Of a stretch of 64,000 nucleotides of DNA, positions 301-37,500 are shown in pieces (the stretch's first letter is position 1; every line of letters begins with the position of its first letter). Source of the DNA: Protonemura montana (taxonomy: Eukaryota; Arthropoda; Insecta; Plecoptera; Nemouridae). Position numbers and translations under genes: made by a program. Location of the stretch: the NCBI GenBank assembly GCA_947568835.1, contig OX387602.1, positions 27,488,633-27,552,632 of the forward strand. Reading direction: 5' to 3'. Below the pieces are notes generated by a model, which had not been told where the DNA came from, ran no database searches, and saw nothing but the letters and a program-made list of their open reading frames with translations.

Positions 301-1267
301 AGACGGGTGGTGGGGGGAAAGTGGTTAACGGTTTGTTAGGACGTTTCTACGTGGTTAACGGTCTGTTAACCTTGTCTTCTAGTTTCCTAACGTGTTCGTG
401 TACTACGAGGCGTTGGTTAACGGTCGGTTAACACGTTGCTACGTGGTTAACAGTCTGTTAACCTTGTATTGCAGTTTCCCAACGTGTTCGTGTACTACGA
501 GGCGTTGGTTAACGGTCTGTTAACACGCTGTGACGTGGTTAACGGTCTGTTAAGACTTTACAACGTGGTTAATGGTCTGTTAAGTCGTTGCTACGTGGTT
601 AACGGTCTGTTAACCTTGTATTGCAGTTTCCCAACGTGTTCGTGTACTTCGAGACGTTGGTTAACGGTCTGTTAAGACGTTGCTACGTGGTTAAAGGTCT
701 GTTAAGACGTTGCTACGTGGTTAACGGTCTGTTAACCTTGTATTGCAGTTTCCCAACGTGTTCGTGTACTTCGAGACGTTGGTTAACGGTCTGTTAAGAC
801 GTTGCTACGTGGTTAAAGGTCTGTTAAGACGTTGCTACGTGGTTAACGGTCTGTTAACCTTGTATTGCAGTTTCCCAACGTGTTCGTGTACTTCGAGACG
901 TTGGTTAACGGTCTGTTAAGATGTTGCTACGTGGTTAACGGTCTGTTAACCTTGTATTGCAGTTTCCCAACATGTTCGTGTACTACGAGACGTTGGTTAA
1001 CGGTCTGTTAAGACGTTGCGACGTGGTTAACGGTCTGTTAACACGTTGCTACGTGGTTAACGGTCTGTTAACCTTGTATGCAGTTTCCCAACGTGTTCGT
1101 GTACTACGAGATGTTGGTTAACGGTCTGTTAAGACGTTGCTACGTGGTTAACGGTCTGTTTACCTTGTATTGCAGTTTCCCAACGTGTTCGTGTACTACG
1201 AGACGTTGGTTAACGGTCTGTTAAGACGTTGCTACGTGGTTAACGGTCTGTTAACCTTGTATTGCAG
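301..1267 (+). repeat. Minisatellite containing duplicated splice-acceptor/exon-start sequence
   Basis: Tandem units are built from two modules. One is a 30-bp element around the core GGTTAACGGTCTGTTAA, spaced by ACGTT-type linkers. The other ends in TTGTATTGCAG followed by TTTCCCAACGTGTTCGTGTA. The second module is the 3' splice site and first ~27 bases of the real exon that starts at 1268. Eight extra copies of the AG-exon junction place pseudo-exon starts at about 383, 475, 627, 749, 871, 963, 1084 and 1176. The copies are nearly identical, so the array is young or homogenised. Confidence 0.9.
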
Positions 1268-2512
1268 TTTCCCAACGTGTTCGTGTACTACGAGGCGATC
1301 TCCAACTTGTTCCTGGACAGTCCCGTAGCAGAATTGTACGCTTCGGGTAAAATGTTCAACTCCAAGTGGCCGGCAGCTCAAGGGTCTGACATCATCAGAC
1401 TTCTGTTGTTACGCAGATTTGGGGGCGTTTACCTGGACCTGGACATCGTCGTTCAAAAGTAAGCGCTTAATTGCAACTTAAATTATATTAAATATCTGTA
1501 GTAAGAAGTTATTTTTACGTGTTGGTGAACAATTTATTTGGAAATTGCATTCAACAAAACGTAGGTATATTCACAGAATCTTATTACTCTGAAAAATAAC
1601 TGCCAAATACACAAGCTCATAAATATGACAATGCAAAGCGATAGCAAGACTAAGCTTAGCTAAGCTCAGGCAACGCTAGCCTTTGTCAGGCAGCGCCGAC
1701 AAAGCATAGCGAGAGTAAAGAAATTGTTTCAATGTTTTTCAACTTTTGGCACGGCTCCCTTGTTCCCTTCCCAAGAAAACACATATTTAATTATTATCAT
1801 TGGTATTTAAAACAAAATCTGACGGATTTTTTCTTTTTATAATCCGATCATAACTTTTCTATTTATATTTGTTTTAAGAATGGCTAAAATATGAATTCTC
1901 GTGGCGGGATGAAAACGGGCTGTGATTAACTACACGTAGTTCTGACGTCATTTTGTTGTATTCTTTGCGTTCGCTTCTGTTTTTTGACGTTTCTTGACGT
2001 CATACTGACGTCAGAGACCACTTCATGTCACAAAAAATGGCGACCCTCGTTTTCGTACGAGATTCAAACGCAAACATTTTAAACAGAGATATTTTATTCA
2101 AAATTGGATTTAAAAGAAAATAAAAAAATACGTGTTCATGAATTTCTCACACAAAAAAAAATGTAAAAAAATGTAAAGAGATTTCCCTATTGAGAGCGCA
2201 CCCAACTGTTTTGTTACAAACTAAGCTCTGGGTGCTGGGATTTGTTTCAATTGTCTTTAGGTCACTTGATTGGCTACCAGCGCATTCTGTCGGCCTCCTG
2301 CGGAACGTGTTCCCGATGAACGGGGTGATGGCGATCGCTGCAGATCAGCTGGGAGATGAGTTCACCTCTCAGCTGTTGGATGCTGTGCAGAGATCTTTCG
2401 ATGGATCCATATATCTTAGCAATGGACCCGACGCCATTGTAAAAGTTTTCAAGAAAAACTGCGGATTTATTTTGCATGACTCTGCCAAGGTGAATATTAT
2501 CTTGAGTTGCGT

Positions 2513-2575
<63 letters not shown>

Positions 2576-4567
2576 GTCATCATCATCATCATCCTCTCAC
2601 TGACCGACGCCATTAGAGCAGTGCCGCGTGGCCAGATGCCAAAACAGTGCGTCGTTAAACACAACAAATCAAGGAATGAGTCCAGCGATAATCTCTTTCC
2701 TCCACAGCTGCTTCTACTTTTTGTTTCCATCTTTCTCCTGATCTCCCTCTTCCCCTTCCCTCTTATTCCACGCTTAAAATCTTTCTTCCTCCATTCTCAT
2801 CATTTTTGCAAACAATTTCAATCTTTCTTTCCCAATTTGGACACCTAATCTCACTTTATTTGCCCGTTTTCTCCACATTTCCTCTGCTTCTTTACTCCAC
2901 CCAAGAGTTTAATTTCTTTTGTATTTCACACATTTTCTTCCATATATTTCACAACATTGTAACCGTTTCTGTTTTATTCCTATTCCATTCCTCTTCTTCT
3001 ATGAAGAACAATGATTTTTCTTTAAGAAACCATCTCCACTTTTCTCCCAAGGATGTGTCAAATGAAAAAGAAAGCCGATCAAAGCAAAAACAGTCAAAAT
3101 ACACAAAATTAAGTGCAAAAATATGTCAATAAACGACTCGAGAAGTTTGCGTCAACTTAACGTCTGCGTGTAAAATAAAACTACGATTAATGAATTAATT
3201 TAAAACAATGGGCATCAAGTGGGCGAAACAATTGCAATGTTATGTTCCTCTTTTATCTCATGTGTAAAATACTGGCTGAATTGCTAATAAATAAACATTA
3301 TTATTATTGGGAAAGAAGCTAGACTGGTAAAAAGTGCAACCGAACCGGGCTACGAACCCGGGACCTCCGAATTGCCGGTCGGGTGCTCTACCAACTGAGC
3401 TATCCGGACAGCGGGGGGTGGGATAAGTGATCAAGGGGAAGAGGCCGACGTGAGTTCGTAGCATCTTTATGATGAGATGCTTATTCAATGGCCACAGGAC
3501 AGAATGGTCGGTCACTATTCCTCGAATCGCAGTTATCTTGAAAGATATATCGGTTGTTGCAGTGTTTTTTCTGGAATTTCCGTTCGGGAGCTTAAAGCAG
3601 CCATCCGCTTGCTGGTATCAGCTTCCTAATGGAAATGTTAGAAAAACCAAAACTCACTGCATTATTATGATGGTTTTTAGACTCATGTCTACTTGATTTA
3701 TCCTTAGCACCAGTTTTAAGAAAAACTATTTCAACTGGGTTTTGAATGCTAAGTAAAGGGCTCCTAAAATGTGCTAAATAAATAACATATTATTAATAAA
3801 TTATATCTTTAACTGAGTCAGGTATTGAATGGGTGACCATTATACACATGACCAGTTCTGTTCGGGAGAGAGGTTGGAGGGATGAAAGTTAGTACAGCAA
3901 CTTCATTCGCCTTGCTAATCAACCTCTCGACAGCATGGATTTGTGGAGGAATCCTGCTGTTCGAGTTGTACCGTCCTTCGGAAGGGACGTGAAGCCGGTG
4001 GTCCCCTTGGTGCTTTTCGACAGGAGTAGGCTACGTGCCGGCACCGGGTTTCCCCTCCTCCCTTCTAGGCTAGGTTAGGTTCATCATCATCCTCATCATC
4101 ATCCACTCGTTCACCGACGCCATTAGACCAGTGCCGCAGGGCCAGTTGTCAAAACAGTGCGTCGTTAAACACCACAAATAATAATAATAATAATATATCA
4201 TTAATATAGTATAATAAATAATACTGAATTATTATTATTATTATTATTAATGTTTTGTTTACAGAAAGTGTACAAGAGTCCAACAATGAACGACTGCAAA
4301 GGTTTCGCTCTTCTGCCCGCCTTCGTTCACTACCCCTTTGACTGGAGACATCTGAACGTGTACTACGAGGAAAAGACAAGCAAGTCAACAATGAATCTCA
4401 TACAAAACTCTACAACAATCCACCTTTACACTGCAGCTAACAAAGATCACGACAACAAACTGAAGAGAGGATCTCAACAACCAATAGCTCTTGTACAGCG
4501 CAAGTTTTGTCCGAATGTACTGCAAGCCTTCGTGCCGCCCTCGAGGAGGAGTACAGGACACCACTAA
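1268..4567 (+). CDS. A4GALT-like glycosyltransferase (alpha-1,4-galactosyl/GlcNAc-transferase family), 3' part
   Basis: Three exons are seen: 1268-1458, 2261-2489 and 4265-4567 (stop). Phases 2 and 0 join cleanly. The protein is a type II Golgi enzyme of the lactosylceramide 4-alpha-galactosyltransferase family, which transfers a sugar from a UDP-sugar to a glycolipid or glycoprotein acceptor. Exon 1 carries the donor-binding DXD motif in the context FGGVYLDLDIVV. Exon 2 carries NGPDAIVKVFKK, matching the family's GPQLLTRVFKKWC region. Exon 3 carries the FALLPAFVHYPFDW block and the family C-terminus, with a late Cys-Pro. The visible 240 residues cover the catalytic half. The N-terminal cytoplasmic tail, membrane anchor and stem are not in the window, so the gene is incomplete on the left. 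Whether the donor is UDP-Gal or UDP-GlcNAc cannot be read from the sequence. The intron between exons 2 and 3 holds a CAT microsatellite, a SINE and a dispersed repeat. Confidence 0.85.
2512..2593 (+). repeat. (CAT)n microsatellite
   Basis: About 27 TCA/CAT triplets, one interrupted by CGT, lie in the second visible intron of the glycosyltransferase. They start just after the donor at 2490. A smaller CAT cluster lies at 4081-4104. Both are followed by the same flank (ACCGACGCCATTAGA.CAGTGCCGC), so the microsatellite is part of a dispersed repeat unit. Confidence 0.9.
3305..3530 (-). mobile_element. tRNA-derived SINE (family A)
   Basis: On the minus strand, 3343-3412 reads as a tRNA-like head: GGATAGCTCAGTTGGTAGAGC is an A-box region and GGGTTCGTAGCCC is a T-arm. 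The would-be anticodon loop resembles GGC (Ala), but U33 is C and the acceptor stem pairs poorly, so this is a SINE head and not a functional tRNA. The flank GCTAGACTGGWAAAA.GTGCAACC recurs at 39850. The region near 3480-3520 (TTCAATGGCCACAGGACAGAATG) matches diverged sequence near 41050 and 45150. Confidence 0.65.
3825..4180 (+). repeat. Dispersed repeat R1 (GAGAGAGGTTGGAGG...CTCGACAG unit)
   Basis: The stretch from GGGAGAGAGGTTGGAGGGA through TTCATTCGCCTTGCTAATCA and ACCTCTCGACAG to the CCTCCCTTCTAGGCTAG end recurs on the opposite strand at about 54180-54460. Its CAT-rich tail and CGACGCCATTAGACCAGTGC flank recur at 2600-2665 and partly at 8497-8560. It has no coding capacity. The left edge (ATTGAATGGGTGACC) faintly resembles an internal 5S rRNA segment, which is too short to classify it. 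Confidence 0.6.
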
Positions 4568-4990: not shown

Positions 4991-5039
4991 TTCGTTGCAA
5001 CTTCCAAAGTATTGAAGCAATCTAAAATCTAAATAGCCC

Positions 5040-5995
5040 ATCGGGTTCGGGGGTGCAAACTACCCCTTAGACCACAGTATGGGCGAATCTTCAAAAATCA
5101 AGAAAAAACGTAAGGGGTTAGTCCATTGATTTTTTCAATATTTTTAAGTGGAATTTCAAGTGATGGATTTTGACCCGCGAGGGATGTCAACAGGGGTAGA
5201 ATTTCAAAGGAAGTCGAATGCACCCCTCTGATTTTGTCTCAGAATAATATTAAGGGAGTTATTTAAGTTTTAATGTTTAAAATCAATATAGTGGCTAAAG
5301 TATGAGGTTAACGCAAAATCTAATTAGCCCATCGTGTTCGGGGGTGCAAACTACCCCTTAGACCACAGTATGGGCGAATCTTCAAAAATCAAGAAAAAAC
5401 GTGTCCATTGATTTTTTCAATATTTTTTGAGTGGAATTTCAAGTGATGGATTTTGACCTGCAAGGGGTGTTAACAGGGGTAGAATTTCAAAGGAAGTCGA
5501 ATGCACCCCTCTGATTTTGTCTCAGAATAATATTAAGGGAGTTATTTAAGTTTTAATGTTTAAAATCAATATAGTGGCTAAAGTATGAGGTTAACGCAAA
5601 ATCTAATTAGCCCATCGTGTTCGGGGGTGCAAACTACCCCTTAGACCACAGTATGGGCGAATCTTCAAAAATCAAGAAAAAACGTAAGGGGTTAGTCCAT
5701 TGATTTTTTCAATATTTTTTGAGTGGAATTTCAAGTGATGGATTTTGACCTGCGAGGGGTGTTAACAGGGGTAGAATTTCAAAGGAAGTCGAATGCACCC
5801 CTCTGATTTTGTCTCAGAATAATATTTAGGGAGTTATTCAAGTTTTAATGTTTAAAATCAATATAGTGGCTAAAGTATGAGGTTAACGCAAAATCTAATT
5901 AGCCCATCGTGTTTGGGGGTGCAAACTACCCTGTAGACCACAGTATGGGCGAATCTTCATAAATCATTGATTTTTTCAACATTTTTTAAGTAAAA
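5040..5995 (+). repeat. ~290-bp tandem repeat, about 3.3 units
   Basis: Units start at about 5041, 5332, 5625 and 5907 at the shared TCGTGTTCGGGGGTGCAAAC block (spacings 291, 293, 282). Each unit contains a CCCCTTAGACCACAGTATGG block, a GTCCATTGATTTTTTCAATA block and an AGGAAGTCGAATGCACCCCT block. The sequence before 5040 and after 5995 is a more diverged version. A ~10-base indel (AAGGGGTTA) distinguishes unit 2. No coding capacity is seen. Confidence 0.85.
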
Positions 5996-7842: not shown

Positions 7843-10800
7843 CTAAATTCCAGTCGACCGGTGCTTTTGATTGGAGGAAGCTAAAAAACAGCTGACAGTT
7901 TCCGAGATCTCTGTCACAGTGACATTTTGATTCTTATCCTGCGGTTGTTTTATTCCTAACAAAGCTTGCGGATCATTCCATGTCAAATAGGACCAACCTT
8001 GATCTTAACCAACTCGGAATTTCATGACATCTCACTTGTTCAGAATGTTGCTTTGAGTAAAAGCATTTTTTTTTTAACTCAAAGAGTTCAAAAGTTATGG
8101 GGGGTTTTTGGCAAATTTCATGAAATTCAGAGTCGGCCAAGGTAAAAATTAATTTTAAATAGCTTAGTTATGCTTATATTTCCGTTTATAAATATGCATT
8201 TTTTCCAGAGCCGAGAAGTGATCACTGTGATAGATTAAAAACCTTGCTTTTCTCCCCGAGGGACGGAAATTGAACAAAGCTGCTGGTCTTGCGTTGACGT
8301 AGATCGATGTTTCCCGAGACAAGTTCTTCTTCAGTTAGGTGCAGCGGGACCGAGAGGGGAGGGAACGCCAACCTGCAAAATAAGGGAAACATTTAGACAT
8401 GTCAGGATAGCCAACTGTGCCAGACTGGCAAGCTAACAGGTGGCAACACTGCTTGTTGGGATTAAATATAGCACTGTTTTGACAACGATCCATGTGGCAC
8501 TGGTCTAGTGGCATCGGTGAATGAGTGGGATGATGAACCTAACCTTGCCTAGAAGAGCATGCACTCTTATATGCAGTGCATTCGACTGGACAGTAAGCCT
8601 GTAAAACATACCTGGCATGCACTCTTATATGCAGTGCATTCGACTGGACAGTAAGCCTGTAAAACATACCTGGCTTGCACTCTTATAGGCAGTGCATTCG
8701 ACTGGACAGTAAGCCTGTAAAACATACATGACATGCACTCTTATAGGCAGTGCATTCGACTGGACAGTAAGCCTGTAAAACATACCTGGCATGCACTCTT
8801 ATAGGCAGTGCATTCGACTGGACAGTAAGCCTGTAAAACATACCTGGCTTGCACTCTTATAGGCAGTGCATTAGACTGGACAGTAAGTCTGTAAAACATA
8901 CCTGGCATGCACTCTTATAGGCAGTGCATTAGACTGGACAGTAAGTCTGTAAAACATACCTGGCATGCACTCTTATAGGCAGTGCATTCGACTGGACAGT
9001 AAGCCTGTAAAACATACCTGGCATGCACTCTTATAGGCAGTGCATTCGACTGGACAGTAAGCCTGTAAAACATACCTGGCATGCACTCTTATAGGCAGTG
9101 CATCGACTGGACAGTAAGCATGTAAAACATACCTGGCTTGCACTCTTATAGGCAGTGCATTCGACTGGACAGTAAGCCTGTAAAACATACATGACATGCA
9201 CTCTTATAGGCAGTGCATTCGACTGGACAGTAAGCCTGTAAAACATACCTGGCATGCACTCTTATGGGCAGTGCATTCGACTGGACAGTAAGTCTGTAAA
9301 ACATACCTGGCATGCACTCTTATAGGCAGTGCATTCGACTGGACAGTAAGTCTGTAAAACATACATGACATGCACTCTTATATGCAGTGCATTCGACTGG
9401 ACAGTAAGCCTGTAAAACATACATGACATGCACTCTTATATGCAGTGCATTCGACTGGACAGTAAGCCTGTAAAACATACCTGGCATGCACTCTTATAGG
9501 CAGTGCATTCGACTGGACAGTAAGCCTGTAAAACATACATGACATGCACTCTTATATGCAGTGCATTCGACTGGACAGTAAGCCTGTAAAACATACCTGG
9601 CATGCAGTCTGATAGGCAGTGCATTCGACTGGACAGTAAGCCTGTAAAACATACATGACATGCACTCTTATATGCAGTGCATTCGACTGGACAGTAAGCC
9701 TGTAAAACATACCTGGCATGCAGTCTGATAGGCAGTGCATTCGACTGGACAGTAAGTCTGTAAAACATACCTGGCATGCACTCTTATATGCAGTGCATTC
9801 GACTGGACAGTAAGCCTGTAAAACATACCTGGCATGCAGTCTGATAGGCAGTGCATTCGACTGGACAGTAAGTCTGTAAAACATACCTGGCATGCACTCT
9901 TATAGGCAGTGCATTCGACTGGACAGTAAGCCTGTAAAACATACCTGGCATGCACTCTTATAGGCAGTGCATTCGACTGGACAGTAAGCCTGTAAAACAT
10001 ACCTGGCATGCACTCTTATAGGCAGTGCATTAGACTGGACAGTAAGTCTGTAAAACATACCTGGCATGCACTCTTATAGGCAGTGCATTCGACTGGACAG
10101 TAAGCCTGTAAAACATACCTGGCATGCACTCTTATAGGCAGTGCATTCGACTGGACAGTAAGCCTGTAAAACATACCTGGCATGCACTCTTATAGGCAGT
10201 GCATCGACTGGACAGTAAGCATGTAAAACATACCTGGCTTGCACTCTTATAGGCAGTGCATTCGACTGGACAGTAAGCCTGTAAAACATACATGACATGC
10301 ACTCTTATAGGCAGTGCATTCGACTGGACAGTAAGCCTGTAAAACATACCTGGCATGCACTCTTATGGGCAGTGCATTCGACTGGACAGTAAGTCTGTAA
10401 AACATACCTGGCATGCACTCTTATAGGCAGTGCATTCGACTGGACAGTAAGTCTGTAAAACATACCTGGCATGCACTCTTATGGGCAGTGCATTCGACTG
10501 GACAGTAAGCCTGTAAAACATACCTGGCATGCACTCTTATAGGCAGTGCATTCGACTGGACAGTAAGTCTGTAAAACATACCTGGCATGCACTCTTATAG
10601 GCAGTGCATCGACTGGACAGTAAGCATGTAAAACATACCTGGCTTGCACTCTTATAGGCAGTGCATCGACTGGACAGTAAGCATGTAAAACATACCTGGC
10701 TTGCACTCTTATAGGCAGTGCATTCGACTGGACAGTAAGCCTGTAAAACATACCTGGCATGCACTCTTATAGGCAGTGCATCGACTGGACAGTAAGCATG

Positions 10801-13374
10801 TAAAACATACCTGGCTTGCACTCTTATAGGCAGTGCATCGACTGGACAGTAAGCATGTAAAACATACCTGGCTTGCACTCTTATAGGCAGTGCATTCGAC
10901 TGGACAGTAAGTCTGTAAAACATACATGACATGCACTCTTATAGGCAGTGCATTCGACTGGACAGTAAGCCTGTAAAACATACCTGGCATGCACTCTTAT
11001 AGGCAGTGCATTCGACTGGACAGTAAGCCTGTAAAACATACCTGGCATGCACTCTTATAGGCAGTGCATTCGACTGGACAGTAAGCCTGTAAAACATACA
11101 TGACATGCACTCTTATAGGCAGTGCATTCGACTGGACAGTAAGCCTGTAAAACATACCTGGCATGCACTCTTATAGGCAGTGCATTCGACTGGACAGTAA
11201 GTCTGTAAAACATACCTGGCTTGCACTCTTATGGGCAGTGCATTCGACTGGACAGTAAGCCTGTAAAACATACCTGGCATGCACTCTTATGGGCAGTGCA
11301 TTCGACTGGACAGTAAGTCTGTAAAACATACCTGGCATGCACTCTTATAGGCAGTGCATCGACTGGACAGTAAGCATGTAAAACATACCTGGCTTGCACT
11401 CTTATAGGCAGTGCATCGACTGGACAGTAAGCATGTAAAACATACCTGGCTTGCACTCTTATAGGCAGTGCATTCGACTGGACAGTAAGTCTGTAAAACA
11501 TACCTGGCATGCACTCTTATAGGCAGTGCATTCGACTGGACAGTAAGTCTGTAAAACATACCTGGCTTGCACTCTTATGGGCAGTGCATTCGACTGGACA
11601 GTAAGCCTGTAAAACATACCTGGCATGCACTCTTATGGGCAGTGCATTCGACTGGACAGTAAGTCTGTAAAACATACCTGGCATGCACTCTTATAGGCAG
11701 TGCATCGACTGGACAGTAAGCATGTAAAACATACCTGGCTTGCACTCTTATAGGCAGTGCATCGACTGGACAGTAAGCATGTAAAACATACCTGGCTTGC
11801 ACTCTTATAGGCAGTGCATTCGACTGGACAGTAAGTCTGTAAAACATACCTGGCATGCACTCTTATAGGCAGTGCATTAGACTGGACAGTAAGTCTGTAA
11901 AACATACCTGGCATGCACTCTTATAGGCAGTGCATTCGACTGGACAGTAAGCCTGTAAAACATACCTGGCATGCACTCTTATAGGCAGTGCATTCGACTG
12001 GACAGTAAGCCTGTAAAACATACCTGGCATGCACTCTTATAGGCAGTGCATCGACTGGACAGTAAGCATGTAAAACATACCTGGCTTGCACTCTTATAGG
12101 CAGTGCATTCGACTGGACAGTAAGCCTGTAAAACATACATGACATGCACTCTTATAGGCAGTGCATTCGACTGGACAGTAAGCCTGTAAAACATACCTGG
12201 CATGCACTCTTATGGGCAGTGCATTCGACTGGACAGTAAGTCTGTAAAACATACCTGGCATGCACTCTTATAGGCAGTGCATTCGACTGGACAGTAAGTC
12301 TGTAAAACATACCTGGCATGCACTCTTATGGGCAGTGCATTCGACTGGACAGTAAGCCTGTAAAACATACCTGGCATGCACTCTTATAGGCAGTGCATTC
12401 GACTGGACAGTAAGTCTGTAAAACATACCTGGCATGCACTCTTATGGGCAGTGCATTCGACTGGACAGTAAGCCTGTAAAACATACCTGGCATGCACTCT
12501 TATAGGCAGTGCGTTCGACTGGACAGTAAGTCTGTAAAACATACCTGGCATGCACTCTTATGGGCAGTGCATTCGACTGGACAGTAAGCCTGTAAAACAT
12601 ACCTGGCATGCACTCTTATGGGCAGTGCATTCGACTGGACAATAAGCCTGTAAAACATACCTGGCATGCAGTCTTAGGCAGTGCATTTGACTGCACAATA
12701 AGTTTGTAAAACATACCTGGCATGCACTCTTATAGGCAGTGCATTTGACTGGACAGTAAGTCTGTAAAACATACCTGGCATGCAGTCTTAGGCAGTGCAT
12801 TTGACTGGACAGTAAGTCTGTAAAACATACCTGGCATGCACTCTTATAGGCAGTGCATTCGACTGGACAGTAAGTCTGTAAAACATACCTGGCATGCAGT
12901 CTGATAGGCAGTGCATTCGACTGGACAGTAAGCCTGTAAAACATACCTGGCATGCAGTCTTATAGGCAGTGCATTCGACTGGACAGTAAGCCTGTAAAAC
13001 ATACCTGGCATGCAGTCTTATAGGCAGTGCATGCTCTAAAAATTCCTGAACTGAGGCAAAAATAGTGACATTTGTTAAAATATAGATGTCAAGAATTGCT
13101 CTGAATTGCTCACCTTCAGTAGACATGACAAGCTTTGTTGATGGAAACTCCGGGACAGTCTCTGTTGTTGTTCTTTCACAAGAGCAGGTCTCCAGCAGCC
13201 GTTGACAGCTATCTAGAAGAAAGAATTCATGACTCAGACATCGACAGCTTCTCGTTGGTTTCAAAGCAATTGTATGAACTTCAACTAACCTTGTTTAAAG
13301 TTGTATTCAAAGTGAGTCGGTGGTTCTTGAATCCCTAATGCATCCAACAATGTGTTGCTGGTGCTAGAAGCCAT
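7843..13374 (-). CDS. Unrecognised small gene; exons flank the 58-bp satellite (model incomplete)
   Basis: Minus-strand exon candidates are 13290-13374 (ATG; begins MASSTSNTLLDALGIQEPP), 13114-13212 (from TTCTTCTAG to ACTGAAG|GTGAGC), 8243-8372 (from TTATTTTGCAG to AGCAAG|GT) and 7843-7938 (stop). Exons 1 and 2 join in phase 1, and exons 3 and 4 join in phase 0. Exon 2 ends in phase 1, but the only open frame of exon 3 needs a phase 2 donor, so at least one exon is missing or the two halves are separate genes. Exon 3 reads LTEEELVSGNIDLRQRKTSS and looks coding. I do not recognise the family. The ~4.5-kb satellite lies inside the putative intron. Coding status rests on frame openness and splice consensus only. 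Confidence 0.35.
7965..8110 (+). repeat. Dispersed repeat R3, copy 1
   Basis: The segment from ATTCCATGTCAAATAGGACC through CACTTGTTCAGAATGTTG to the T-run and GTTATGG recurs at 24868-25015 in the same orientation with ~80 percent apparent identity. No coding content is seen. Confidence 0.6.
8567..13031 (+). repeat. 58-bp satellite array, about 77 monomers
   Basis: The monomer consensus begins GCATGCACTCTTATAGGCAG and ends GTAAAACATACCTG, 58 bp in all. Variants are recurrent: CATACATGACATGC, ATGCAGTG, TATGGGCA, a TTAGACTGG form, and a one-base-deleted 57-bp form with GCATCGACTGG and GCATGTAAAAC. Longer blocks repeat. The segment near 8973-9345 recurs at 10074-10445 and 11921-12290, and the segment at 11229-11570 recurs at 11575-11915, which is higher-order organisation. 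Each monomer has 6-bp inverted arms (TGCACT...AGTGCA). The right edge (12660-13031) is more diverged, as expected for an array margin. The minus strand lacks stops by chance of sequence, so the apparent ORFs there are not genes. Confidence 0.95.
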
Positions 13375-18140: not shown

Positions 18141-21100
18141 TCATTTCTCAAAATCAGGGAACTTGGAAAAATCTAAAGGTTCTATGACATTGGCACCGAC
18201 AAAACACTTGGGACCGGTGATAACACCGTAAGCCCTCGTCTTTGGTACTGCCACCTCAGAGAAATCATATGCCATGTAATTCTCGACAAAAACATAGAAA
18301 TCCATGAGTGATTCTATTAGACCAAGCCTTTTTAACAAGTACACAACTCTAAGCACATGCGGCACAAAATTCTTTTTGCAACGAATAGCCTTTTTCACGC
18401 TATATGCCAATGCAGTAAGAAATTCTTCTGATTTACGGCGCGTCTTAAGCTCCCCATACAGTTCCGTAGTCCGTTTCTGCACAAACGAGTAGAGCCTGTC
18501 AGTGCACCACTGAGCCGGCCGGGCAAGTTTAGGTGGTTTCCACTTTTTCCCGTTCACCATCAACGACGGGTGTACTGGTTTTGGCTCCTTGCGCACTTTC
18601 GGCACAGCCGTCGCCTTTGGGTAGAAGTCGGTCATCGTCTTTTTCTTGACGGGCGCGTCTGCAACGAGTTCCGGGTACGATCTCTTGGCACGTTCCAGGA
18701 GTGTCGCAAAGTACTCCTTACGCCTCGCGGCCGCTTCTTCAGCTGTGTATGTCTTGATCGTGGAGGCAGGAATTGGCACCTGGAAGGAACAAGGAGTAGG
18801 CTGTCAAAGTAGCAATTGGCCAAGTGTTCCAAGCTACGATTTGCTGTTCAGTCATTTGTCTGCTTGTGAAAGCGAGCGAAAATTTTAGCCTCTAACTATT
18901 TCAGGACCTCAAGCAACGTTATTTTCTGGCTTAGTGTCGTAAAAGCTCGATTGTAGGGGTATGATCAATAATTCTTAGAATCCTCAGAAAGCCAGAAAGT
19001 ATTTCAATTGGGACACTGCCTTACTTCAATAAAAATGTAATTTTGGAAAAACTGGATTATTTAGATTCTGCTAGCAGTTAACTATTATCATTCCATTCAG
19101 GGTCAACTTAGAGCCGGTTATACAATATCCAGTTCAAAGATAACTTCTGGTTAAGATAAAAATGGAAGTACCTAATTAACTGTAATTGGTTGTTGATGTG
19201 TCTTGAGCTGGCTGTAACCTTTTCAACCAAAAATTGTAAAAAATAATCCTTTACGAAAAAAATATCATTCTTAATATCTTTTCGTAGGATTGAACAAAAA
19301 TGCTATAAATATAACTGAACATAAACCAAGACTTAATTGCACGATTACTCATGCCGCTACTACAGCAGCTGATAAGAGACTAACCTGAGCTGGTGGCGTG
19401 ATAGCAGGCGCAGGCAAGCTTTTCTTTGCAGCTACTACTTCAGGGCTCCCGAGGCCACTGCTAGCCGGCTGTGCCAAACAGAACAAACACATCATTTCCA
19501 GTGCCGCTACAGGCACTTCACAGTACTGTAGCCAAACGAAAAACTTTGAAATTGAATGCCACAAACCTGTCTGTTGTTTGAAACACTTAAAAGCTGTTGT
19601 CAATATAAATTTTCCATAGCTAACACTTCATTTAGCAAGTAGCAAAGGCTATGATAGAAAGTTGACTTAGCCTTTACAGGCCATCTGTACAGACAGTTCA
19701 CACTTGTCTTGATTGTAATAAATGGGAATAATTACTTTTTTTTTTTATTATCAACACTATAACCGTCTCAAAAATGTATGCCCAAACGGGGACTCGAACC
19801 CCGATCTCCACCTATTGCGTGTGTTGCTCTAACCCATTGAGCTACTTGGACACTGGCTTTTTGAGATGATTTTAGTGTATTTGATGAGAATGACAGTTCT
19901 CCAAGGAGTAGAACCATGAGGCTGTAAATACCCACAGTCACTCTGATTCTAGTGACGCTATATCACGTCACAACATGTCAAACTCGAATAACTCCAATTT
20001 GACGTTGGATTCGTTGCTGTTTTTTTTTTTTTTTTTTTACTGTTTTTACTTTATTACTGTTTTCTCCCTACACAAAATCACTTGCCGTATTATCTCTGTA
20101 TTCCATATCTCAATTCCTTGTCCTTTCTTCTTGTTCACCAAAATGAACAGTTAAGATATTTTTTGTTTTAAAAAATAGTGCAAAGGTTACACAAAAGGTT
20201 TGGCAATATCACAATTGCTTACAGCCTGAAGTATCCATATCCATATTGTTTTTCTACCTCACAATTATTTTTCTACATTCGGGTGTTATCAGGTAAGTAA
20301 GCCATTTTATCAGAATATGAAGAAAGTAACTACAACTCTTGAGACACTAGTTTTAAAAGGTTGCTAGGTGCTTAAGGTTAAATCATCCCTTTTAACAAAC
20401 AAGTACATAATTGAACAGAAGTTCACACTGTTGGTACTTACTGTGGTATCAGAAACCGTCATATTCTGGACACTACCAACTACACTCCACGTGCCGATGA
20501 TGGAAACATCGCTATCAGAGACATCTTTCCTAGACTCTTTTCTCGAAGGTAAGTGGACTGAGCCTGGAAATACAGTCAAAGAGCAAAACTCTCAGCAATT
20601 GATATTTATTTTCAATGATTAAAACAGTTTGTGATTGGGACAAAATCAAACAAAAAAACTTCTATGGGCTGACAGAAAACCCTCCTCTCATAGAGTTGTG
20701 TGACAGGTAAATTTAGCAGATATTTTGGTTGGAAATATAGAATTCAATAATATCCAACCCAAAAAGTCATCCAAAGAGATCATTTTAACAGACAAATGAG
20801 TAAAATAGCAAAAATATAATTGGCCAAGTGGTCAATTATTATGTTTTTCGACTCATGTCTACTTTATCTAACTTAAGAGTTAGTTTTAAAGAAACCTGTT
20901 AAAAATTGAGTTATAAATGTTAAGGAAAAAAACAACAAATTTATCAAAAAATTTGCTGAGAAGAATTTGATGTTCTTTCCTTAGCATTCAAAACCCAGCT
21001 TAAAATTGATTTTTTACTGTGGTCAATTACCTTGTGCAATGGGAGATTTAGGTGCGGCGGCTGTTACCGATACTATGGGCTGTGCATCCTGTGGCGAACC

Positions 21101-21441: not shown

Positions 21442-24400
21442 GTTTTTCCTTGAAAGCCACCCAATTATCTCAAATATTCAGTTTGGAATATTGCAAGGAC
21501 ATAGGAAGTGTCCCCTCTTAATCGTGGAGTGAAACAAAAAAACGAGGTGGCAGCCTCTGGCCGTGCTGAAAAACTCACAAGATGACTGCTCAAACAATTC
21601 ATGATAATTATCGCTAGGTCCTAACAGTAGAAAATATTCTAAGCTGAATCTATGAAACTTTTTCTTTTGTGAGGCTAACGTAGAAATTTGGTATCAAACT
21701 CAAATAGTACTCTTAGCAGGACAAAAGTAATAAAAATAAGATGATAAGTAACATAGAATTACATTATTTAGAATATAATAGAAATAAGATTGTGAGATAC
21801 AAACTGAGTACTTGCCTTAGTGCTGTTTGCCTGCGGATTGAAATTGGTGAAGTTGGCCTCGTGAGCCAGCAACAGTGTTGATGGTCCACTAATTGGTGTC
21901 ATCAGCGGGACTTTTTGAGAATCAGAGCTTTTTGGCAAAGTGTTGGCCAAAGTGTCTTTGTTGACCCCATGTGACCGATCCAAAGATTTCACTACACTTG
22001 TACTAGCAGCTTCACCTACATTGGCCTCCTTACGGCTCTGTGAACGGGAACCTCCAGCACCTAAATTGTCTTTTTTCAGAGCAGAACGAGAATTGTTGGT
22101 TTTCACAGATGAAGGTGGTTTGGAGCCTTTACTATAAAGGGAAGTGTCACGAACATAATTATTGTCTTCATTTTCTAAACCAATCAGAGGCTTGCTAGAG
22201 TAGGAAGTATTGCCCACATCAGGAGCCTCTGCTAGCCCAGACTTCTTGCTTAGCAAAGCTTGCTTTAAGCCTTTGCCAGTTTTTTCGGCCGGACTTTTGC
22301 TTCTGCGAGTAGCTGAGAGAGCTTGGGAGACTTTTTGACCCGAATTGGTGGCTTCGACACCATCGCTACTAAATGAAAAATTGTCAAAAGCAGATTTTGA
22401 CGTGGCTTTCTGCTTCTTATGCAGCAGTACTGCTGTTTCCCTTCGTTGCACTTTGTGAGATACACTTGGACTTTGATTAACAAAAGATGAGTGTATGGAT
22501 TCGTCATGGGAGCGAGAAATTACTTCATTGTCGTCAATTAGAGACTTTTTAGTGAGCGGAATTGTTTTGGGCAAACCTCCCAACTTAGTAGGACTCTTTT
22601 TGTCACTAACCAAACGTTGTGATCTTTTCAGAAAATGCTCTGGAGCTTCATCTTCATCATCACTAAAAGCCTTGTCAAAGTCAGAAGTGGTTACAGCTTT
22701 CTTCTGTTGCTTTAATAACATTACCTTTTTCTGGCTTTTGGTTGATTTTGACATAGGACTCTGGCTTCTGTCAGAAACTGAAGGTAGTGAGTTTTTCAAA
22801 GAACGATCGGGAGTTCCATCATCTTCATCATCACTAAAAGCCTTGTCAAAGGCAGACGTGGTTACAGCTTTCTTCTGTTGCTTTGATAACATTACCTTTT
22901 TCTGGCTGTTGGTTGATTTTGACATAGGACTCTGGCTTCTGTCAGAAACTGAAGGTAGTGAGTTTTTCAGGGAACGATCGGGAGTTCCACCATCTTCATC
23001 ATCACTAAAAGCCTTGTCAAAGTCAGAAGTGGTTACAGCTTTCTTCTGTTGCTTTGATAATATTACCTTTTTCTGGCTTATGGTTGATTTTGATATGGCA
23101 GGGCTTGAACCGGATGGCATTTGCTCAACATCAACGTTGGACATGGGGTCTTCATCGTCACTGACAATTTCTAGGTCAGGCCGTGTACTTCGAGATTTTC
23201 TAGTACTTATAACTTTCGTAGACAACCTTTTCGATTTAGCAGCACTCTTGCTTCTGCTAGAAACCGAACGTAGTGATTTTTCCAGATCAGGAGTTCCATC
23301 ATCTTCATCATCACTAAAAGCCTTGTCAAAGGCAGAAGTGGTCACAGCTTTCTTCTGTTGCTTTGATAACATTACCTTTTTCTGGCTTTTGGTTGATTTT
23401 GACATAGGACTCTGGCTTCTGTCAGAAACTGAAGGTAGGGAGTTTTTCAGGGAACGATCGGGAGTTCCATCATCTTCATCATCACTAAAAGCCTTGTCAA
23501 AGGCAGATGTGGTTACAGCTTTCTTCTGTTGCTTTGATAACATTACCTTTTTCTGGCTGTTGGTTGATTTTGACATAGGACTCTGGCTTCCGTCAGAAAC
23601 TGAAGGTAGTGAGTTTTTCAGGGAACGATCGGGAGTTCCATCATTTTCATCATCACTAAAAGCCTTGTCAAAGTCAGAAGTGATTACAGCTTTCTTTTGT
23701 TGCTTTGATAACATTAACTTTTTCTGGCTTTTGGTTGATTTTGATATGGCAGGGCTTGAACCGGACGGCATTTGCTCAACATCATCGTTGGACATGGGGT
23801 CTTCATCGTCACTGACAATTTCTAGGTCAGACCGTGTACTTTGAGATTTTCTAGTAATTATAACTTTCGTAGACAACCTTTTCGATTTAGCAGCACTCTT
23901 GCTTCTGCTAGAAACCGAATGTAGTGATTTTTCCAGATCAGGAGTTCCATCATCTTCATCATCACTAAAAGCCTTGTCAAAGGCAGAAGTGGTCACAGCT
24001 TTCATCTGTTGCTTTGATAACATTACCTTTTTCTGGCTTTTGGTTGATTTTGACATAGGACTCTGGCTTCTGTCAGAAACTGAAGGTAGGGAGTTTTTCA
24101 GGGAACGATCGGGAGTTCCATCATCTTCATCATCACTAAAAGCCTTGTCAAAGACAGAAGTGGTTACAGCTTTCTTCTGTTGCTTTGATAACATTACCTT
24201 TTTCTGACTTTTTTTGAATTTTGAAACAGGACTTGGACTGTTGTTAGATCTAGATGAAACGTTTTTAGAAGATGTACCTCCACTGCTGCTGGAAGATATT
24301 TCAAATTCTGACCTTCTAGTTCTAGTTCGAGTTGTTTTGTTGCTCTGGACTCTCTGAGAAGATCTCACTCGTCGCAATTCAGGGCTGTCACTCCGATCCA

Positions 24401-25833
24401 GCTCTGAAGCACTTTTAGAAACTTTAAAAGCTGGTATAATTAAATCCGAATCACCACTCTTATCAAAAACTTTATCATAATTAGAGCTGTGAGACTTGCT
24501 TTCTTTCTTAGAAAACAAAGTTCCCTTTCTCGTGCTCTTTTTGGGCTGCGAGATCGGACTAGTGTCCTCATAGACGGAGCCTGAAGAGGAGTGTTTTATG
24601 CTCGAACTTCTTCTTTTATCAGGCGGTTCGTCTGGGTCAAAAATAGCGGCAAACCTATCAGAAGTGTCTCGCTTGCGCTTGCCTTTGCCCATGATCTCAC
24701 GGCGTGGAGCAGGCCGTTTCCCCGACATCTCTTTGCCACTGCTGAACGTCGAGTCTGATCTTGAACTTGATTCGGCCGTCAGAGGTGGAGGCACATTGAC
24801 AGAATCATCCAGATTTGTAAACCTGTAGCAACAAAACACTTACTTAGCAAAATATCAGAATGCTATTGGGTCATTCAATGTCAAATAGGACCACCTTGAC
24901 CCACTCATAATTTCTTGAAATTTGCCTCACTTGTTCAGAATGTTGGTTTGAGTAAGAGTATTTTTTTTTTATAATTCAAGAACTTCAAGTGTTATAGGGA
25001 TATCAAGTTCGGGCGTTTTCACACCCCGCTCAATGGGTTAGAGCAACACCCGCGATAGGTGGAGATCGGGGTTCGAGTCCCCGCTTGGGCATCAATTGTT
25101 GAGACGGTTACAGTGTTGATAATAATTAAATTTACCCTGCACATTGCAAGCGTTTGCAATTTAACTAAGATTTCATCTAAATACAACAACGCATCCAACG
25201 TCAAATTGGAGTTACTCGAGTTTGACAGGGTGTCACAAGGTAGGTATAGCGTCACTAGAATCAGAGTGACTGTACGTATTTACAGCTTCTTGGTTCTACT
25301 CCTTGGAGCTCTGTCATTCTCATCAAATACACTAAAATCATCTCAAAAAGCAAGTGTCCAAGTAGCTCAATGAGTTAGAGCAACACCCGCGATAGGTGGA
25401 GATCGGGGTTTGAGTCCCCGTTAGAGCATGAATTTTTGAGACCAGAATACCAGAATTTTGTTTCCCAAACGTTGTTCTAAAAAATAAATGTTTGACTACA
25501 AACACATATATTTTGGGCAACATTTCTTCGTAAGACCCATATTTTCTAGTGGCTAATATCTCTCTCTCTCTCCCCCCCCCCCCCTCCCTCCTTTATTTTT
25601 GGATTTTCAGACCTTAGTCTCACTAAGTTTTACGAGCTGCCTCTGCATGATACATACCATTTGCTATTTCTTGTGGTATTGTCCAAAAGCCTGGAATTTT
25701 TCGGAAGGACATCATGCGGCCCTGAGACTTCCGAGTCTTCCAGATCATCAAACCACACCGAATTGGCTGGATGGTGTTCATTGCTGGAACGCTCAGTAAG
25801 GATTCGGGAGACTCGAGATGATTTCCTCAACAT
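18141..25833 (-). CDS. 1398-residue Ser/Lys/Asp-rich repeat protein, probable nuclear cell-cycle factor
   Basis: Six minus-strand exons join in phase: 25658-25833 (ATG), 21816-24822, 21031-21199, 20442-20563, 19385-19468 and 18141-18779 (stop). The second exon encodes ~1000 residues of disordered sequence. At least eight copies of a ~55-90 residue repeat centre on KKVMLSKQQKKAVTTSAFDK followed by AFSDDEDDGTP, with basic patches, SP sites and acidic clusters typical of CK2/CDK targets. The last exon has KKKTMTDFYPK, close to the p21-type PIP degron, then a conserved-looking helical domain (SFVQKRTTELYGELKTRRK to KTRAYGVITGPKC). I do not recognise the family. The large exon ends in a GC donor (AAG|GCAAGT). 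The retrotransposon 3' end begins within 6 bp of the stop codon. The long open frame antisense to the repeats is a shadow. Confidence 0.8.
19745..20035 (-). mobile_element. tRNA-derived SINE (family B), full unit
   Basis: On the minus strand the tRNA-like head at 19783-19855 reads GTCCAAGTAGCTCAATGGGT through GGGGTTCGAGTCCCC. The acceptor stem pairs with wobbles and the T-arm is perfect, but the anticodon arm is irregular. The adjoining ~170-bp body (GAGATGATTTTAGTGTATTT ... TCCAATTTGACGTTGGATTC) is shared with 25100-25356. The copy ends in a T run at 20022-20038. It lies in an intron of the 1398-residue gene, in the same transcriptional sense. Confidence 0.7.
21408..21438 (+). repeat. Poly(T) tract
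   Basis: About 31 T residues lie in an intron of the minus-strand repeat-protein gene. They read as poly(A) in the sense of that gene and may mark an old retroposed insert. Confidence 0.8.
22640..24215 (-). repeat. Coding tandem repeats inside the 1398-residue protein
   Basis: Eight units share the DNA block that encodes SQKKVMLSKQQKKAVTTS and FDKAFSDDED. Two types alternate: a short unit ending RSLKNSLPSVSDRSQSPMSK and a long unit with DLEKSL...RLSTKVI...DLEIVSDDEDPMSN. The order short-long-short-short-long-short-short-degenerate shows a three-unit block duplicated as a whole. Diverged relatives lie on both sides in the protein, for example TLFSKKESKSHSSNYDKVFD and VLLHKKQKATSKSAFDNF. Confidence 0.92.
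24868..25015 (+). repeat. Dispersed repeat R3, copy 2
   Basis: Same element as 7965-8110: ATTCAATGTCAAATAGGACC, CACTTGTTCAGAATGTTG, T-run, GTTATAGGG. It sits directly against the SINE dimer that begins at 25021, inside the first intron of the minus-strand repeat-protein gene. Confidence 0.6.
25021..25440 (+). mobile_element. SINE family B, tRNA-body-tRNA dimer
   Basis: A tRNA-like head (25022-25091, missing its first bases) is followed by the ~260-bp body and a second, complete head at 25356-25429 (GTCCAAGTAGCTCAATGAGT through GTTTGAGTCCCCGTT). Both heads are followed by GCAT.AATT.TTGAGAC. The body is the same as in the 19745-20035 copy. The repeated order suggests transposition or recombination of a unit with two promoter-like heads. 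Confidence 0.7.
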
Positions 25834-34552: not shown

Positions 34553-37500
34553 ATGCCGTGGACGAGACAGGCTTGGAAGGCGCAAGATAGTTACGACGAG
34601 ACAAATGGAGGCACCAACAGTAACTCCTCAACTAGAAGCCCTTGGTGAGGAAAGGCATGGAAGGCTACAGGTGTCTGCAATGCTGACAACATTTGACATT
34701 GTGACAACATTTAAATGCATTGTTCATCCTTGTATGTGCATAATGTCAGTTTTATTCAGTGTCGGTGACAAAAAAAAACATTTCCAAGGATGATTATTGT
34801 TTGTATATATATTTTAATTTATAAATGGTCCATAAAAACAAAACATTTTGTTCTTCTTTACGCAAATTTGCACAAAGCTTAGGCTTAAATGATTATGCTT
34901 AATGATGCTATGGGAGGTATGGAACCTATGCTTTTTGAAAGCATTACTTATTTCAACATGATTTTATATAGGTACGACTGAAGATCAATCAATTGTCATT
35001 TGCTATTTATCACATTTGTAGATATTTTTAGGAAAGGAACAGTTGAGATAGCTTCAAAAATGCTTTGTCAAAATTTGAGACAATTTTACGCAAAACCTTT
35101 AATTCCAGCCCATTTGAACCCATTGTTACAATGGAAGTGGATGAGAAGGCTATTAGCGGCGTTGAGAGCGATGCTGCAGAAACTCACAACTTGGAGACTG
35201 GAAAGCTGATCTGGGCCAGAATTGGCAGATGCCCCTGGTGGCCAGGTGGGGAATGTGAAATTTTATATTATTTGATTGATTGTGAAATTATTACAATTTG
35301 GCTTACAGTCCAATCTTTTAGGGTCACATGACCATGAGTTTTAAAATGTTGTCATATATCTGCTTGTAATAATAATACTATTTACGGGCTATTAGTTAAT
35401 TACATAAAAAATCTCTGTCCTTCTGCACATGCACACTTGGTTCTCTTAAAATACTATTTATAGAATAGAATGCAAGATTCAGTAGTCTTTGATTTTTCTT
35501 TTAAACAAGTTCCGAGGTACTTAAATCAAGTGTTTTTAGATAATTTGGGAGACTGTCAAAAATATGAGCTCCAATTCTAGAGGGGTCTCTAGCCGTCACT
35601 GAGAGGCGGCTTACAGATAAATAAATGTGTTAACGGGACCTTGTGTTCTTCTCATGAATTTTACAATTTTGTGAGAAATATTCTGGGATCCTTTACAAAG
35701 AACAATATATTTATTAGTATATGTTATGATTCAAATACCTACTAAATTCTTGCTATATTTTATTCTTGATATTTTATTCTTTGTTATTATGTTATGCTTT
35801 GTCCATGAAACAATACATGTGAATTTAAGGCCTGACAATCGACGGATACAGCATAGGGCTAGCAGAGGCTGCCTCACGCCGTTGGGTCTTCTGGTTTGGC
35901 GACCACCGCATATCCAAGGTGACAAATCACGTTTAGCAGAACTCACAGCACTTTGGTATTGTTCATTTTTCTGCCGCCAGTTTGCAAATGAAATCTGTTC
36001 GCAGGTGATAGAGGGTTCATGCCAGATTTTCAAGGAAGAATTTGTCTCAATGTTTGACCCTACCAACAAAAGAACTCTATATGTGAAGGCTGTAACGGAA
36101 GCATGCATGGTGAGCCCTTGTAATCACAGCCAAGAGAGACCACAAGTAAATTTGAACTTCCAATTTTGCATTTATTGTTATTTTTAATTCAATGCCATTC
36201 ATTGCAGCTGGCTGCTACCCGCTCTGGACATGCCAGCCAAGACTGGTCACCTGGTGAATTGTGTGCCTGGGCCGCTCAAGGTTGCCCAGAACCCCTCGTC
36301 CCACACACACCCCAGCGTGAGTAAACCCAGGCCGCCACCATTTTTTATTTAAGGTCTTAGGAAAGCTTTTACCGTTGAAATACCTTTCCGTCTTCTGCAC
36401 AAACAAATCAAGACCAAAGCCTGCAGTGGGGCTTGATAACAGAATTTCTAATGCTTCCATAAAATTTAGAAATGGGAAAAAGTTGCTGTAAAAGAGTTGC
36501 TATATTTTTGTGGTTAATGGTGTTCCATGTTTTTAAAAAAGGAGAGGAACTATGAACTTGGGACGGTCTTTTGACCATCTTTAAAAAAAAAACACGCATA
36601 TAAAATATGTACTTATTCCTGAATCTGTTGTCTTCTAAGAACTATTTAAAAGTGCAGTACCCCAAAAACTGGCATTGACAACAGATTCCTAAATTTTTTT
36701 TTTTTCAGCAATGTTCATTCATGATTGGGTATATACCACCCTTAATGGCTACCAGCGAAAGAATCTTCTTGCACGTAAAGAAATGTCTTCCGACGATGAA
36801 TCTGATGACACATCACAAGCAAGTGAGTGCAAAACCTCAAATGCCTTTGGGCTTTGGCAACAATATCAGACTGACAAACCCAGCTCTTGTGTTATCATAA
36901 CGCCATTTTGTTGTAGTGCCGGCACAGGGGCGAGTGTCATCGTTGAAGGGAGTTTGTATTGCGTGTCGGCGACCACTAAAGACGCTTCTTAAAGCTGTAG
37001 AACACCCACTGTTCCATGCAAGCGTGTGCCCAGGTTGCCAGGTAAGTTACCGTTTGGAGGAGAAATTAGGGATGGCACGCAACATTTCTTACAAGCGGGG
37101 CTGGCAGCATGAAAAAAAAAAATTTGGTCAACCAGTAATAACAGCAGAGCATTTAGGATGCTTCAACCAGGTATTTGTTATAATTTTGTGTGCTTCTTTT
37201 GTATCGGAAAATTGTCAGGAGTGCTCTTGCCCTTGAAAAAGTAACAGGTACAAGTTACGAAACGCTGGGAAATTTAGTTGTTCTTTACAAAGCATTCAAA
37301 ACCTAGTTCAAATAGTTTTTGTTAAAACTAACGCTGAGGTTACATCGAGTAGACATGAGTCTAAAAACAATCACGATCCGAGTTATTTTGGAGACTATAC
37401 AAAACTCACCAAATATTAAAATGTTCCCTGCCCTGGAGCTAAGCATAAAAAACTTTTGAAAATTTGGGAGACTTTTTTTGAAGATACCATTGGGCTAAAA

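Follow-up and report, generated by a model that had tools for sequence, protein, structure and literature searches.

A compound minisatellite with eight copies of an intron–exon junction ahead of its exon in a putative alpha-1,4-glycosyltransferase gene of Protonemura montana

The stretch of Protonemura montana DNA analysed here, which is 64,000 nucleotides long and is referred to below as the window, starts inside an intron, downstream of which lie the last three coding exons of a gene on the forward strand: an exon of 191 nt (1268–1458) that is directly adjoined by the donor AAA|GTAAGC, an exon of 229 nt (2261–2489), and the last coding exon with the stop codon (4265–4567), all placed by reading frame and Pfam. 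When joined, the three exons encode 240 residues, a C-terminal part with no internal stop, and Pfam recognized Gb3_synth (4.8e-23) and Gly_transf_sug (2.7e-10) in the joined translation, with the frame intact; from its sequence, the gene looks like one for an A4GALT-type alpha-1,4-glycosyltransferase. The preliminary description had taken the exon at 1268 for a glycosyltransferase coding exon, which is supported by the downstream exons that complete the Gb3_synth domain. TcdA_TcdB (3.3e-05, just above the Pfam cut-off) and Caps_synth (0.00037, below the Pfam cut-off) were set aside as shared-fold matches, as both cover the same sugar-binding stretch as Gly_transf_sug and Gb3_synth is far stronger. 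The two fully visible introns measure 802 and 1775 nt, and ARAGORN places a tRNA-Ala (ggc), which may be a tRNA-derived repeat, at 3336–3409 on the reverse strand inside an intron of the gene. A tblastn search for upstream exons over the 40 kb upstream gave no match there better than E 2.7, from which nothing is inferred because 10 kb of that stretch, including the 5 kb directly before the window that cover the 5' splice site side of the intron, consist of N.

The remainder of the window holds further repeats and open frames. Shortly past the last exon, Tandem Repeats Finder reports a 292-bp tandem repeat of 3.3 copies (5024–5966), and farther downstream of the gene a tandem array (8557–13032) with a unit of 58 bp, some 77 copies and 95% matches. 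ARAGORN finds a tRNA-Leu (caa) at 19778–19852 on the reverse strand, the same strand as an open frame of 1023 amino acids (21768–24839) that holds 171-bp repeats (22648–24233) and for which Pfam gave nothing at 0.01. Scattered open frames between 35047 and 43013 on the forward strand resemble exons of a DNA cytosine methyltransferase; two of them were scanned, giving a Pfam match to DNA_methylase (1.3e-05) at 38962–39270 and none at 35047–35328. Of ten open frames of the window scanned besides the glycosyltransferase, one matched the 7tm_7 chemosensory receptors (1.3e-06, Pfam). Across the assembly, six tandem copies of TTAGG gave 6,912 + 6,102 overlapping matches (control: 0), and interstitial TTAGG arrays lie on contig 1, for example at 916562, 11637666 and 16524876. 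The abundance of TTAGG and the 7tm_7 match both speak for an arthropod genome, given how these two features are distributed.

The feature of main interest is a compound minisatellite at 323–1237 on the forward strand, delimited by Tandem Repeats Finder (score up to 934, threshold 50) and by unit parsing, which runs into the exon at 1268–1458. It is composed of 14 A units of 30 bp and 8 B units of 61–62 bp, arranged as A B A B AAA B AA B AA B A B AA B A B A, after which come the genuine head, acceptor and exon. The A unit, whose commonest form is GGTTAACGGTCTGTTAAGACGTTGCTACGT, occurs as 10 distinct sequences among its 14 copies, and the B unit as 6 among 8, one copy being 61 bp long and the others 62 bp. 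A B unit starts with the 18-bp head of an A unit, which forms the inverted repeat GGTTAAC-GGTCT-GTTAACC, and continues with the 12-bp acceptor end CTTGTATTGCAG, the exon's opening 30 bases, and TT; the genuine 3' end of the intron (1238–1267), which adjoins the array, has the same 18-bp head followed by CTTGTATTGCAG. The composite units measure 92, 122 or 152 bp, with a single one of 121. A search of the 258-Mb assembly for the junction pattern, with up to three mismatches allowed, gave 7 matches, all inside this array, and the DNA of 1116–1458, which comprises the array end and the exon, gave 8, all at this locus; neither search found a second array locus in the assembly, the one with 1116–1458 skipping very common words and scoring the best candidates only.

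A scan of the whole window recovered nine junctions of acceptor and exon, in which the exon part begins at 383, 475, 627, 749, 871, 963, 1084, 1176 and 1268 and spacings of 92, 152, 122, 122, 92, 121, 92 and 92, which match exactly the nine coordinates of the preliminary description and uphold its statement that the junction is copied eight times before its exon. Its further statements, that each repeat includes the same functional-looking acceptor and the first ~27 coding bases, are in part too broad and in part too narrow: the acceptor is present in the B units, that is, in 8 of 22 units, and absent from the 14 A units of 30 bp, and the exon start is indeed included, with an exon part of 30 bases. 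The sites were compared over 23 bases from –20 to +3 (20 intron and 3 exon bases), and at five of the eight extra copies this site is identical to the genuine one, so that "same" and "functional-looking" are fair for these five. They include B3 (597–658, acceptor 627), B4 (719–780, acceptor 749), B5 (841–902, acceptor 871) and B6 (933–994, acceptor 963), as well as B2 (445–506, acceptor 475), which keeps all 30 exon bases and has 98.3% identity to the genuine junction. The deviating copies are B1 (353–414, acceptor 383), the most diverged copy, with the variant TTGTCTTCTAG; B7 (1055–1115, acceptor 1084), which is short of one T ahead of the AG; and B8 (1146–1207, acceptor 1176), in which TTTAC replaces TTAAC. 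The AG is retained in all eight, and in the exon part copies 1–2 read GAGGCG, as the exon does, and copies 3–8 GAGACG or GAGATG.

Shortly ahead of the AG, every junction has TTAAC (TTTAC at 1176), which fits the branch-site consensus and may act as the branch site. Pyrimidines occupy 11 of the 17 positions from –20 to –4 at 1268 and 475, and 13 of 17 at 383; since the downstream acceptors of the gene have similar numbers (13/17 at 2261, 11/17 at 4265), the array acceptors are, by this rough count, ordinary sites for this gene. Local sequence does not explain a preference for 1268, given that five of the eight sites are identical to it and that 383 is richer in pyrimidines. RNA structure was examined because several of the sites do not differ in local sequence. 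The array RNA is predicted to fold very stably, at –402 kcal/mol, with a z of –11.5 against 20 shuffles, a procedure that also breaks the repeats; the pairing probabilities of the AG, the pyrimidine stretch and TTAAC, taken from a global fold of 301–1600 and from 150-base windows, do not distinguish the genuine site from the copies, and structure was rejected as a cue for 1268. Six letter-for-letter identical 23-base acceptors, five copies and the genuine one, therefore stand in a row before one donor and make up a natural test of splice choice, in which differences in usage must stem from position and context and not from the site.

It is in their consequences for the reading frame that the nine junctions differ. 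A frame entered at any of the eight upstream acceptors closes within 46 to 66 codons, the stops lying at positions 521 to 1326, which is 130 to 935 nt ahead of the exon end at 1458; the earlier expectation that some upstream copies would keep the frame open has to be abandoned. With the donor at 1459, the exon measures 191 nt from 1268 and 283 to 1076 nt from the copies. Being the only acceptor with an open frame and the one that gives the shortest exon, 1268 is most likely the productive site. Exon definition, which would favour the short 191-nt exon in a setting of long introns (the two fully visible ones have 802 and 1775 nt), is the mechanism of choice that we favour. If an upstream copy were used now and then, premature-stop transcripts would result, which are expected to be degraded. 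Where intron definition rules, as is typical of Drosophila according to the accessible text of PMC2891723, recognition is across the intron and a nearer upstream copy could win. Minisatellite-like duplications of intron–exon boundaries are known in amphioxus genes as "mirages", and splicing there appears undisturbed (PMC3087553, PMC3902484, as excerpted). We consider it likely, judging from the DNA, that the present array is a minisatellite of this type, that 1268 is its productive acceptor, and that upstream use leads to premature-stop transcripts.

The exon part of the B units points to where they came from. The exon start, FPNV, is in register with human A4GALT (tblastn E 1.2e-07, with a hand-entered query), and on the strength of this alignment the 30 exon bases are probably old coding sequence that the array took from the exon. 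That the array contains an amplified intron–exon junction, from which it was originally proposed to have grown, is supported on the same grounds, its exon part deriving from a coding exon by the FPNV alignment and the Gb3_synth domain, and the array probably took up the junction as a copy. We envisage that a repeat of 30 bp, situated at the intron's 3' end, spread over the intron–exon border, which would have produced the composite units. Each of these holds a branch-site-like sequence, an acceptor and the 30 bases with which the exon starts, and eight of them precede the real exon; this anatomy is plain in the assembly, and the process behind the spread would have been slippage or unequal exchange. 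The copy that has diverged most is B1, on the outer edge, with 88.3–93.3% identity to the other copies, and the remaining copies and the genuine junction are 93.3–100% alike, B3, B4 and B5 being identical across the 60 columns compared. In addition, 659–780 equals 781–902 base for base, an exact duplication of 122 bp. A diverged edge copy together with an exact duplication is what minisatellite turnover usually leaves behind, and it suggests that the length changed recently. The array would show a minisatellite swallowing the edge of an exon and leaving the gene unbroken.

As for the origin of the A unit, its head resembles a repeat that is dispersed in the genome. The head 18-mer TGGTTAACGGTCTGTTAA has 258 + 217 genome-wide matches (up to two mismatches), compared with 10 + 31 for the reversed control, and 22 of the first 100 places listed are in the array; an 18-mer spanning the tail of the A unit gave 17 + 1 matches, against 8 + 6, and 12 of the 18 are in the array. 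Twenty dispersed places (L021–L040), hand-picked from the matches listed, were compared, and among these L021 matches 18 of the 19 others at E 1e-5 or better around TTGTTAACGGTCTGTTAA, the exception being L028. Since the head 18-mer lies far above its control and L021 matches the other places, the array head matches the core of a dispersed GTTAACGGTCTGTTAA repeat. Many of the dispersed copies have common flanks, for example CAGCCAATCAGAAGATG; inspection by eye saw none of the flanks of the dispersed repeat beside the array. The match of the cores is suggestive of a dispersed mobile-element repeat having seeded the array.

The evidence set out above can be read in other ways. The array might be a length-variable splicing switch, in which a substantial part of the transcripts is spliced to upstream copies, giving isoforms with stops, and the length of the array sets the amount of productive mRNA. 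Such a role would suit the five extra acceptors that are identical to the genuine 23-base site, the unproductive outcome at all eight upstream acceptors and the signs of recent turnover, as well as the human minisatellite with multiple splice donors that is said to lie in an interferon-induced transcript (Turri 1995). On the other side, exon definition would favour 1268, and amphioxus arrays of like kind appear not to disturb splicing, as far as the extracts of PMC3087553 and PMC3902484 extend, and we regard a switch as unlikely. Distinctly improbable, in our estimation, is a fuller version in which a hypervariable acceptor array, seeded by a mobile element, would act as a rheostat, with the number of unproductive copies setting productive glycosyltransferase mRNA; if this were true, individuals would differ in their glycans through the length of a minisatellite. 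That a short repeat was falsely expanded by the assembly would be in keeping with the ease with which tandem repeats misassemble, with the exact 122-bp duplication, which could still be a local error, and with an amphioxus globin array that appeared aberrantly assembled in the draft genome (PMC3087553, in part); such an artefact is very improbable for the array as it stands, in which five of the eight B units and eight of the 14 A units each differ in sequence from every other unit, on a contig of 33 Mb in an assembly of 34 contigs. Finally, following the intron-gain model drawn for amphioxus globins in the available part of PMC3087553, the donor-like AAG|GTCTGT that two A units carry (at 697 and 819) could combine with upstream acceptors into nascent cassette exons, two of which (475–697 and 627–819) are multiples of three, but this is exceedingly improbable, as both in-frame cassettes have stops (at 673 and 795), the remaining 5 of 7 acceptor–donor pairs shift the frame, and these donors are weak (5.5 on a hand-entered weight matrix, by which the two visible true donors score 7.9 and 8.7).

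A word search of titles and abstract starts in the open-licence literature found no arthropod minisatellite of this kind. The human gene 6-16 (IFI6) reportedly contains a minisatellite with multiple splice donor sites, in an account by Turri, Cuin and Porter from 1995, and it is like the present array in that a minisatellite multiplies a splice site. The human one multiplies donors, whereas the present one multiplies acceptors; repeated donors of the 6-16 type were not found within the array, the best donor-like sites of which score 5.5 against 7.9 and 8.7 for the true ones (same hand-entered matrix). A second group of related cases concerns intron gain through tandem duplication, which has been surveyed in Drosophila (PMC2891723, a text in which the word "minisatellite" is absent) and reported further in PMC4974935 and PMC3443670, and to which may be added the activation of cryptic splice sites by internal tandem repeats in humans (PMC2812944). 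In these papers, as excerpted, splice or proto-splice signals are copied by tandem duplication, and arthropods are among the examples, as it happens here; however, in the intron-gain cases new introns arise, which in Drosophila come from coding sequence that was duplicated, whereas here an existing junction has been multiplied many times with no new intron evident.

The closest known systems are the amphioxus mirages, which, in the accessible sections of PMC3087553 and PMC3902484, affect Adh3, the globins BflGb6 and BflGb9, troponin C and PGBD5, the latter two having been added by PMC3902484, in which undisturbed splicing of PGBD5 is that paper's own suggestion. Both they and the present array have tandem copies of an intron–exon border, in homogenized clusters from which the border copies are left out, as those sections describe them. 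Here, the repeats span the border in 8 B units with acceptor and 30 exon bases, the splice signals are kept (AG in 8/8, the 23-base site identical in 5/8), and homogenized inner copies (B3, B4, B5) stand beside a diverged edge copy (B1). We class the array as a mirage on these sequence features, its effect on splicing being inferred. The hosts differ, a cephalochordate in the one case and an arthropod in the other, and so do the units, which measure 150–160 bp in BflGb6 and 10–72 bp in Adh3, as given in the excerpts, compared with 30 and 61–62 bp here. The amphioxus work, in the same excerpts, includes RT-PCR and BflGb6 haplotypes of 6 and 3 units, whereas the present array is known from the DNA of one assembly. 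Two unit types alternate in the present array, and none such are mentioned for amphioxus mirages in the excerpted text of PMC3087553 and PMC3902484. The mirage phenomenon appears to be carried from amphioxus to an arthropod, and the array is notable for this host group and for its two-unit structure.
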